DNA of 64,000 nt from Spirochaetota bacterium. Lineage in GTDB: Bacteria > Spirochaetota > Spirochaetia > Treponematales > Treponemataceae. Shown here in pieces: positions 43,150 through 47,686 of this stretch (position 1 is the first letter of the stretch; each line of letters starts with the position of its first letter). Where the stretch lies: the NCBI GenBank assembly GCA_016285185.1, contig JAEEQG010000148.1, forward strand, positions 62,001 through 126,000. The letters run 5' to 3'. The notes beneath the pieces were generated by a model, which worked only from the letters and a program-made list of their open reading frames with translations, was not told where the DNA came from and did not search any database. The position numbers and the translations under genes are program-made.

Positions 43150-44733
43150 TTATTTTCCTTTACCTGAAAAGAGAGCTTTTATTCTGCTAAATAATGTGGC
43201 TTTAGTTGTTTGCGTAATTTGTGGTTTTGAATAATCATTACACTTTTTATACGTATGTTTATTTGCATGTTTATTGTTTGAATGATTGTTTTTGTCGGTA
43301 ATTCTTTTTTTATTGTTTTCAGGCTTTCTTGATGATGGTTTTATATCTGTATTGTATTTTTGTCTATAAAGAACCATTCTCTCTTCAAAGGACATATTAT
43401 ACATATTCTGGAACTCTTCCGTCGGATGTTTTTTATGTTTAACAGTTTTTCTGCCACTATCGTATTCTCTATGTTCTGATTTATTGTTCCGATATTTTGA
43501 GGCATGATTATTCTGGTTTCTTGTATATCTTCTTCTTAGATTGCCTCTGTCATCTTCAAAATGATTTTCTGTTTTGATATAAATTCCAGCACTTTTGTCT
43601 TCTTCAAGCATGGATTCATCGACAACAGTCGCAGGAATAGACATTTCGATGTAACGTTCTATTGCAGGTAAATCATATACATCCTGCTCACTGCAAAAAG
43701 TGATAGCTTTCCCACTTTTACCTGCACGAGCGGTTCTTCCAATTCTATGAACATAGTTTTCAGCTTCATTTGGTATATCATAGTTTATTACCATTGCAAG
43801 ATTTTCAACATCAATGCCTCTTGCCGCAACATCAGTCGCCAAAAGGCATTTAAGCTTTCCATCTTTAAAAGCATTGATAATTTTGAGTCTCTTGGGCTGG
43901 GGCAGGTCGCCGATGATGTATTCACATTTTATTTCATTCAACTGTAATCTTTTAGCAATTATCTCACACATTCGTTTTGTATTACAGAAAATAATTACAC
44001 TTTCAGGGGCTTCTTTTTTTAATATTCCAAGTAAAAGTCTAATTTTACTTTCACTTGAAACGTGAAGGAGTAACTGATCAATTTCAGAAACTGTAATATT
44101 TTCTGACTCAATTGTTATTTCTTTTGCATTTTCTGTATATTCCCATGCAAGATTTTTAACATAAGTATTAAGTGTCGCACTGAACAGCATCGTCTTTCGT
44201 CTTGTTGTGTCAGGTATTTCTTTTATAAGAGTGCGTAATTCTGGATAAAATCCCATATCAAACATTCTATCAGCTTCATCAACAACAAGAAATCTTAGGT
44301 TTGATAGATCTAAATGTCCACTTTTTATTAAATCGATAATACGTCCTGGAGTTCCTATGATTATATCAATACCTTTTTTAAGTTTTTCTAATTGTTTTTC
44401 ATACCCAACGCCGCCATAAAAACTGCCAGCTATTAATTCGGTATATTTTCCAAGTGCTTTTGCTTCTTCTTCAACTTGAACCGCCAGTTCTCTTGTTGGT
44501 ACAAGAATAAGTACTTTTTTACCAATAAGTTCTGATTTTGTAAGCAATTGTTGATATATACAAATTAAATATGCGGCAGTTTTTCCAGTTCCAGTCTGAG
44601 ACTGGACATACAAATCTTCATTTTCAAACGCTTCAGATAATATTCTATCCTGAACCGGTGTACAAACAAAATAACCTGTTTCAGTAATACCTTTTAAAAG
44701 GGTTTTGTCCAAATTTAAATCTGTAAAATTCAT
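43150..44733 (-). CDS. DEAD-box RNA helicase with a basic C-terminal tail
   Basis: 527 residues. Q motif near FVCTPVQ (about 23-29), motif I SQTGTGKT (about 45-52), DEAD box VVDEADRM (about 149-156), SAT in LFSATL, motif VI HRIGRTARAG. Residues about 400-527 are a disordered tail rich in Lys, Asn, His and Arg, probably RNA binding. RhlE/DeaD group; function in ribosome assembly or RNA decay is likely but not specific from sequence. The start lies about 130 bases from the twin dyads at 44862, which may sit in its upstream region too. Confidence 0.9.
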   Translation of the reverse strand: MNFTDLNLDKTLLKGITETGYFVCTPVQDRILSEAFENEDLYVQSQTGTGKTAAYLICIYQQLLTKSELIGKKVLILVPTRELAVQVEEEAKALGKYTELIAGSFYGGVGYEKQLEKLKKGIDIIIGTPGRIIDLIKSGHLDLSNLRFLVVDEADRMFDMGFYPELRTLIKEIPDTTRRKTMLFSATLNTYVKNLAWEYTENAKEITIESENITVSEIDQLLLHVSSESKIRLLLGILKKEAPESVIIFCNTKRMCEIIAKRLQLNEIKCEYIIGDLPQPKRLKIINAFKDGKLKCLLATDVAARGIDVENLAMVINYDIPNEAENYVHRIGRTARAGKSGKAITFCSEQDVYDLPAIERYIEMSIPATVVDESMLEEDKSAGIYIKTENHFEDDRGNLRRRYTRNQNNHASKYRNNKSEHREYDSGRKTVKHKKHPTEEFQNMYNMSFEERMVLYRQKYNTDIKPSSRKPENNKKRITDKNNHSNNKHANKHTYKKCNDYSKPQITQTTKATLFSRIKALFSGKGK

Positions 44734-44861
44734 AATTACTCTTCTGCATAAAAAAGCACTGAAGCTTTTTCCGTTTAATGTATTTTGTAAACATATAATA
44801 GCGTTTTTTACTAAAAATGAAAAGGACTGAACTGTAAGTTATAAAAAAAAGAAAATTATCA

Positions 44862-44893
44862 ATTTTATTTAAAATGTCTATTTTATTTAAAAT
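44862..44893. repeat. Twin dyad element upstream of the candidate small RNA
   Basis: ATTTTATTTAAAAT occurs at 44862-44875 and again at 44880-44893, an 18-base period. Each copy is a perfect 6-2-6 inverted repeat (ATTTTA-TT-TAAAAT). The second ends 5 bases before the -35 hexamer at 44899. The layout suggests a repressor or activator operator; the regulator is unknown. Confidence 0.5.
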
Positions 44894-44898
44894 AATAC

Positions 44899-44927
44899 TT
44901 GACATTTTGGACATTTTTAACTATATT
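44899..44927 (+). promoter_or_regulatory. Promoter of the candidate small RNA
   Basis: Consensus TTGACA (44899-44904), a 17-base spacer and TATATT (44922-44927). No plus-strand gene follows for 2.6 kb, so it must serve an untranslated RNA or be unused. Confidence 0.6.
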
Positions 44928-44933
44928 AAGATT

Positions 44934-45016
44934 CAGAGCTTGCATAGACACTCTCTCCTTCTGTGTAAGTTATTTTGTAGTCTTGAGATTCTCTCCCTCA
45001 AGACTACTTTTCTTTT
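44934..45016 (+). ncRNA. Candidate small RNA, about 83 nt
   Basis: It begins about 7 bases after the -10 at 44922-44927 and ends at a perfect 11-base intrinsic terminator: GTAGTCTTGAG (44977-44987), loop ATTCTCTCC, CTCAAGACTAC (44997-45007), then TTTTCTTTT. Upstream, ACAC/GTGT form a short stem (about 44947-44965) around loop TCTCTCCTTCT. Both loops hold TCTCC; the first holds CTCTCCTT, complementary to a strong Shine-Dalgarno (AAGGAGAG). The 3' end overlaps the stop of the minus-strand ABC gene at 45015. No reading frame of note and no known RNA family recognised. Existence is inferred from promoter plus terminator. Confidence 0.55.
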
Positions 45017-45734
45017 AAACACCATAGAGTATTTTGACAATTTCTTTTTCAGTTTTTTTATTGTTTATTTCGTTTTTGTTTTTATCCAGATAAATATTAA
45101 GAGAATTCTCATTTTTTTTGTGTTGTAAAATAACGATTCGATCGGCTAATAACAAAGCTTCATTTATGTCATGCGTAACTAGAAGAACTGTCCTTGGTTC
45201 ATTTTGCAACATTGATTTAAAAAGAGAGAACAGCTGTTCTTTCAAAGCTATGTCCTGTGAGTGAAATGCCTCATCAATAAGCAGAATTGGGGCAGGGTAA
45301 CCAAATGCTCGTGCAAGAGCACACCTTTGTTTTTCACCGCCAGACAACTCGTTAGGAAGAGCATTTTTTCGTTCAAGAAGATTGCACAGCGACAAATAGT
45401 ATTCGGATCTTTTTATGGCTTCAGCCTTTGAAAACAGTTTTTCAAGTGGCAACATACAGTTTTGCAGAACATTTGCCCACGGTAGAAGCCTTGGTTCCTG
45501 AAAGAGATATGAGATTGAAGCTTTCGTTTCAGTTTCAGCACATTTTATTGTCCCTGACTGATATGGCAACAAACCCACGATTGAATCCAGCATGGAAGTT
45601 TTTCCTGTTCCCGATGGAGCAAGAAGGGCTGTTGTCTTGTTTTTTTCGAAACTTATTGAAAAATTTCTGAACAGTTCTTTTTTCCCTCTGGTCAACGAAA
45701 AGTTTTTGATTTCTATTCCTATATCTTTATTCAT
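45015..45734 (-). CDS. ABC transporter ATP-binding protein, SsuB/TauB-like
   Basis: 239 residues. Walker A APSGTGKT at 39-46, Q-loop SYLFQEPRLLPW, signature LSGGEKQRC (about 138-146), Walker B ILLIDEAFHSQD. The family energises uptake of nitrate, sulfonate, taurine or thiamine precursors; the W after the Q-loop is typical. It overlaps the permease gene by 4 bases. Its 3' end is antisense to the terminator of the candidate small RNA. Confidence 0.88.
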   Translation of the reverse strand: MNKDIGIEIKNFSLTRGKKELFRNFSISFEKNKTTALLAPSGTGKTSMLDSIVGLLPYQSGTIKCAETETKASISYLFQEPRLLPWANVLQNCMLPLEKLFSKAEAIKRSEYYLSLCNLLERKNALPNELSGGEKQRCALARAFGYPAPILLIDEAFHSQDIALKEQLFSLFKSMLQNEPRTVLLVTHDINEALLLADRIVILQHKKNENSLNIYLDKNKNEINNKKTEKEIVKILYGV

Positions 45735-47614: not shown

Positions 47615-47686
47615 GTCTCCTTCGTCTAGTGGTTAGGACATCGGGTTTTCATCCCGACAACAGGGGTTCAATTCCCCTAGGAGATG
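47615..47686 (+). tRNA. tRNA-Glu (anticodon TTC)
   Basis: Acceptor arms GTCTCCT and AGGAGAT (one G-T pair) with discriminator G. The anticodon stem and loop are TCGGG-TTTTCAT-CCCGA (TTC), and the T arm is AGGGGTTCAATTCCCCT. CCA is not encoded. It reads GAA/GAG. Confidence 0.95.

Follow-up and report, generated by a model that had tools for sequence, protein, structure and literature searches.

The window analysed here, a stretch of 64,000 nucleotides from a spirochaete of the family Treponemataceae, carries on its forward strand, at 44899–45016, what is very probably a real small RNA gene, as judged from its sequence. The preferred reading, to which a probability of roughly 0.55 can be given, is that the product is a lineage-specific, independently transcribed RNA of about 80 nt that would act in trans and independently of Hfq, its two redundant loops blocking ribosome binding sites. 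The original prediction, an independent small RNA gene with loops complementary to the Shine–Dalgarno (SD) sequence, is well supported by the rarity of the promoter–terminator unit, by the fold and by the occurrence of UCUCUCC on two different stems, and further by an RNA of like design that is separately conserved in Treponemataceae.

Promoter, terminator and fold of the predicted RNA

The locus opens with a sigma-70-type promoter, TTGACA-N17-TATATT (44899–44927, forward strand), with TTGACA at 44899–44904, a 17-nt spacer and TATATT at 44922–44927, which matches at 11 of 12 positions and is present just as it had been described. The same hexamers with the same spacing, again with 11 of 12 matches, are found at the tRNA gene at 47615 which, as had also been stated, is the next forward-strand gene downstream; the lack of any such gene before it indicates that the terminator serves the window RNA alone. 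The transcript is predicted to begin at 44935, 7–8 nt past the −10 box, and to end in the U run at 45016, and its length of about 80–83 nt agrees with the ~83 nt proposed earlier. A tandem pair of GACATTTT (44901–44908 and 44910–44917) spans the −35 region, and the inverted form of this sequence, AAAATGTC, lies at 44871–44878; these repeats (44871–44917) are a possible operator of the promoter.

The RNA is predicted to fold into two hairpins with a minimum free energy of −28.9 kcal/mol, as compared with −13.2 ± 2.8 kcal/mol in 200 dinucleotide shuffles, none of which was as stable (z = −5.7), and the fold ranks fourth among the non-overlapping 85-nt windows of the 64 kb after correction for G+C content. 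Hairpin 1 (44937–44971) has a 12-bp stem (44937–44948 paired with 44960–44971) that includes three G-U pairs, with pair probabilities mostly at or above 0.98, and the loop CACUCUCUCCU (44949–44959), which is unpaired with a probability of at least 0.94. This stem replaces the one first drawn, ACAC paired with GTGT around the loop TCTCTCCTTCT, for which the pairing probability is 0.00. Hairpin 2 (44977–45007) is the intrinsic terminator, and here the perfect 11-base stem (44977–44987 paired with 44997–45007) and the T-rich tail, TTTTCTTTT (45008–45016), were found as claimed, with the loop AUUCUCUCC at 44988–44996. Both loops contain UCUCUCC, unpaired with a probability of at least 0.94, and the two stems differ; a 7-mer common to both loops arises in 2.3% of loop shuffles, a p-value that is modest and post hoc. 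The three G-U pairs of hairpin 1 indicate that it is the forward strand that folds; they become A·C on the reverse strand, where hairpin 1 is not predicted. CsrA-type GGA loops in a 3′ untranslated region of the neighbouring ABC operon, a structure of the reverse strand, were considered and rejected for the same reason.

How unusual such a unit is was measured in 502,632 bases of stretches of the same genome, scanned on both strands for promoters with 10 or more of 12 matches that are followed, after little predicted coding sequence, by a T-tailed stem of 9 bp or longer. Only two non-coding units were found, those of the tRNA at 47615 and of the window RNA. When 44734–45030 was dinucleotide-shuffled 3000 times, a promoter with at least 11 of 12 matches appeared in 0.7% of the shuffles and a T-tailed stem of 9 bp or longer also in 0.7%, and the promoter followed by the terminator in none. 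The earlier statement that there is no open frame between the two has to be modified, since a forward-strand frame is open through the RNA (an 84-aa ORF at 44874–45128); coding is nevertheless unlikely, because this ORF has its ATG ahead of the promoter and no ATG is present in the transcript. The promoter, the terminator, the fold, the redundant loops and the orphan position can all be read from the DNA itself, and a promoter and an intrinsic terminator of its own without a coding frame are, at this level, what is looked for in an independent small RNA gene.

Searches for homologues and a conserved hairpin RNA

To the left of the locus lie, on the reverse strand, the genes for a DEAD-box helicase (43150–44733) and an ABC-F-like ATPase, and to the right, on the same strand, an ABC uptake operon with an NMT1-like binding protein, a permease and an ATPase. 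No homologue of the window RNA was found by BLASTN in 59 related genomes, nor by the covariance search that had been suggested, which was carried out with a single-sequence model in 40 genomes, and with homologues lacking in both searches of relatives the locus is without covariation. Rfam, searched at the gathering score and at lax thresholds, gave no real match, the best weak matches being at chance level, and there was no match in plasmid, phage and IMG/VR collections. The genomes compared are distant, as same-genus helicase orthologues are only 62–70% identical; in the same-genus genomes, the helicase gene lies apart from the ABC operon, and neither the region upstream of the helicase nor the one downstream of the operon contains anything resembling the window RNA. 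The only close sibling (G007, 77% complete), which has 89% DNA identity to this genome over 2.9 kb (at L266/L267), yielded no match when searched for the window RNA, for the binding-protein (SBP) gene or for the helicase orthologue. Weak tandem matches in another genome, G002 (L106 and L114), were rejected as homologues, since they are an unrelated TTAAGATATTTT repeat array; dense imperfect AAGGCTTAAGATATTTT repeats in G002:C148 (L176, about 2150–2450) gave false tandem matches of the window RNA model.

The extended promoter pattern was found, among 274 genomes searched, only in this genome and in G017, plus one match in G201, and the strongest outside BLASTN match to the locus, in G017, covers the promoter only. 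Behind that promoter there is a second orphan unit, in which a short leader precedes a terminator hairpin whose loop is UUUUUCUCCUCCUUU. The G017-type RNA does have homologues (members L246–L274, e.g., L246:1501–1564 and L267:1501–1560), and this conserved Treponemataceae anti-SD RNA is absent from Rfam 15. Its architecture consists of a TTGACA-17 promoter, the leader AGCAGCAA and a terminator hairpin with a near-invariant loop, in which UCCUCCUUU is constant in almost every member. When 11 members were used to build a covariance model, it gave matches throughout the Treponemataceae, the strong ones spanning many genera; 120 of 145 genomes have a match, which is an upper bound because some of the weak matches (E above about 0.01) are chance terminators, and true members score 44–85 bits. 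When 31 members were aligned, 93.4% of the stem cells paired and 10 of the 11 stem pairs changed on both sides in a compensatory manner, as opposed to 6.0 in column shuffles, with none of 500 such shuffles reaching any of the observed covariation measures.

Most members of the family have a promoter of the TTGACA-17-TATAAT type, and most are divergent from a phosphorylase-superfamily gene with a protein start resembling MTA/SAH nucleosidase, which we take it to be on the basis of this start and general knowledge, not of a specific model. An AATGCGA box is located just upstream of the −35 element in many members (e.g., L247, L248, L249 and L253), mostly those beside this gene, and in several it is part of an inverted repeat like CGCAnnnAATGCG; judging by its sequence and placement, the box is a candidate regulator site. 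This genome has a family member of its own (C112:7327–7386 of G000, L267), which scores 69.7 bits with family model R3 and sits between a dihydroorotate-dehydrogenase-like gene and a DJ-1/ThiJ-like gene; the nucleosidase gene of this genome is on another contig and has no family RNA.

One alternative, which we consider rather unlikely, is that the window RNA is a diverged paralogue or a co-regulated partner of the conserved family and not an independent invention. The two have in common a TTGACA-N17-TATAAT-like promoter, with the same −35/−10 elements and 17-nt spacer, an orphan terminator hairpin and a CU-rich loop with CUCC in it. In its start region, TATATTAAGATTCA, the window RNA is identical at 13 of 14 positions to this genome's family member, TATATTAAGAATCA (L267), and among 643 TATATT sites in the genome sample only that of the window RNA matches 7 of 8 positions of that member's octamer. 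This likeness, which was noticed post hoc, is a hint, not a proof, of common origin or co-regulation. Hairpin 2 is also the best match to family model R3 within 44700–45200, weak as it is at 11 bits, but family model R2 gave only 10.3 bits (E 6.8) for the whole window, which is below significance, so that by profile the window RNA is not a member. Furthermore, it has two hairpins where the family has one, its leader is CAGAGCUUGCAUAGA and not AGCAGCAA, the AATGCGA box is missing upstream, and its neighbours are the ABC transporter operon and the DEAD-box helicase instead of the MTA/SAH-nucleosidase gene.

Position relative to the ABC uptake operon

The original prediction had also allowed for an antisense RNA limiting the 3′ end of the ABC operon. 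The overlap on which this was based exists, but it comprises only 1–3 nt, as the 3′ end of the RNA just reaches the stop codon of the ATPase gene (45015–45017, reverse strand). A cis-antisense RNA at this position would be fully complementary to a reverse-strand mRNA that reads past the stop codon, and would trim, destabilise or terminate that mRNA, or else mask the ribosome binding site of a 20-codon ORF (AAGGAGAGAGTGTCTATG...). Such an arrangement would be in line with the RNA abutting the ATPase stop codon, with the lack of any strong terminator listed on the reverse strand from 45015 to 44733, and with the presence of AAGGAGAGAG opposite loop 1, followed 5 nt later by an ATG. The ORF itself (MQALNLNIVKNVQNVKYYFK, 44884–44960 on the reverse strand, opposite hairpin 1) is only putative and has no known features, an SD-like site is to be expected opposite an anti-SD loop, and a nearby ATG is common in AT-rich DNA. 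With the overlap with coding sequence confined to the stop codon, with nothing like the RNA downstream of the ABC operon in the same-genus genomes examined, and with a strong discrete terminator and a duplicated loop motif that a cis mechanism does not need, the antisense proposal did not hold up well and is improbable. In the upstream region of the helicase, also on the reverse strand (44744–44797), there is a sub-threshold Rfam match to STnc420 (24.7 bits against a cut-off of 70, E 0.015), which includes an AAAAGC/GCTTTT hairpin.

Proposed mode of action and possible targets

In the trans-acting mechanism that we favour, the two hairpins would display two copies of the pairing motif UCUCUCC in rigid, fully unpaired loops, and these would pair with the purine-rich ribosome binding sites (A/G-GGAGAGA, core GGAG) of several mRNAs. 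Pairing would prevent the entry of the ribosome, either loop would be enough, Hfq would not be needed, and hairpin 2 would serve also as the terminator. Transcription of the RNA, its pairing with SD regions, the resulting repression and the existence of targets are all presumed in this scheme. Loop 1 is complementary to AGGAGAGAGUG and loop 2 to GGAGAGAAU, both of which contain the SD core GGAG; UCUCUCC is found in both loops. Full pairing of loop 1 with its 14-nt complement is predicted at −24 kcal/mol, and sampled SD-type sites give about −9 to −12. Hfq was not found in 13 genomes, this one included, which is consistent with an Hfq-independent mode like that of NfeR1 and LhrC (see below).

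In the genome sample, GGAG precedes the start of 135 of 438 predicted genes, and GGAGAG is present in only 4 of the 438 upstream regions. The extended complement AGGAGAG before an ATG (AGGAGAGN{2,9}ATG) is not enriched, with 15 occurrences against 14 in the reversed control, and this counts against a large dedicated regulon. Exact AAGGAGAGAG sites, of which there are four in the genome, were rejected as targets, as none is at a convincing gene start. AGGAGAG near true-looking starts provides unranked candidate leads, namely an iron-dependent-repressor-type regulator (L284), a short-chain dehydrogenase (L285) and an HU-HIG/DUF4469 protein (L279). The trans-repressor of translation put forward originally fits the LhrC and NfeR1 precedents, but no target was found for it and its extended complement is not enriched. 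A chance promoter followed by a terminator, for instance in a decayed gene or a mobile-element remnant, and yielding an unimportant short transcript, would account for the lack of detected conservation, the AT-rich spacer and the lack of target enrichment, but it is hardly probable in view of how rare the unit is, both in shuffled sequence and in 0.5 Mb of this genome, the intact 12- and 11-bp stems, the repeated loop motif and the plasmid and phage collections without a match.

Comparison with known systems and significance

On the best reading of these comparisons, the window RNA would belong to an already known kind of regulator, the redundant anti-SD-loop RNAs. The NfeR1/alpha-r14 (cuckoo) RNAs of the alphaproteobacteria have several hairpins whose stems vary greatly and whose loops all present one and the same anti-SD motif, and they are Hfq-independent (PMC10746234, PMC7143759). 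The window RNA resembles them in its redundant anti-SD loops on differing stems and its sigma70-type promoter, whereas NfeR1 has three hairpins with CCUCCUCCC as opposed to two with UCUCUCC, stems from a different phylum, and has no sequence homology to the window RNA by Rfam search. LhrC1-5 of Listeria pair with SD regions through redundant CU-rich motifs, which are located in a stem-loop, in a linker and in the terminator loop, and Hfq is dispensable for lapB (PMC4132741). The window RNA, too, repeats a CU-rich motif complementary to the SD sequence in separate unpaired regions, one of them the terminator loop. The differences are that LhrC is multicopy, 111–114 nt long, uses CUCCC/UCCC and has a third, single-stranded motif, and that the window RNA was found in one copy, is ~80 nt long and uses UCUCUCC. 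From the Treponemataceae anti-SD hairpin RNA, with its single hairpin, loop UCCUCCUUU and leader AGCAGCAA, the window RNA differs by having two hairpins and a score of 10–11 bits against the family model. ctRNA_pND324 (RF00238), a plasmid copy-control antisense RNA, was rejected; it has two hairpins and a pyrimidine loop as well, but its weak match to 44945–45017 (19.3 bits, with a gathering score of 45; E 3.5) is at chance level.

Only 6 distinct small RNAs were annotated for spirochaetes in a 2022 survey, in which T. pallidum was listed among the bacteria without any (PMC9029176). In a phylum with few described small RNAs, the locus provides a concrete candidate that can be tested, and the way in which it is predicted to act is simple. 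It is conceivable, as a tentative extension, that many Treponemataceae run an Hfq-free riboregulatory layer based on terminator-hairpin RNAs with anti-SD loops, in which the conserved RNA, usually nucleosidase-linked, and lineage-specific RNAs such as the two-loop window RNA, with a common start-region design, would compete for or divide the same ribosome binding sites. If the window RNA were confirmed, the redundant anti-SD-loop strategy of the Firmicutes and alphaproteobacteria would be seen to work also in spirochaetes that apparently lack Hfq. The companion family, which is conserved, covarying and new to Rfam 15, and whose loop mimics the anti-SD sequence, is arguably a more important result than the window RNA itself.
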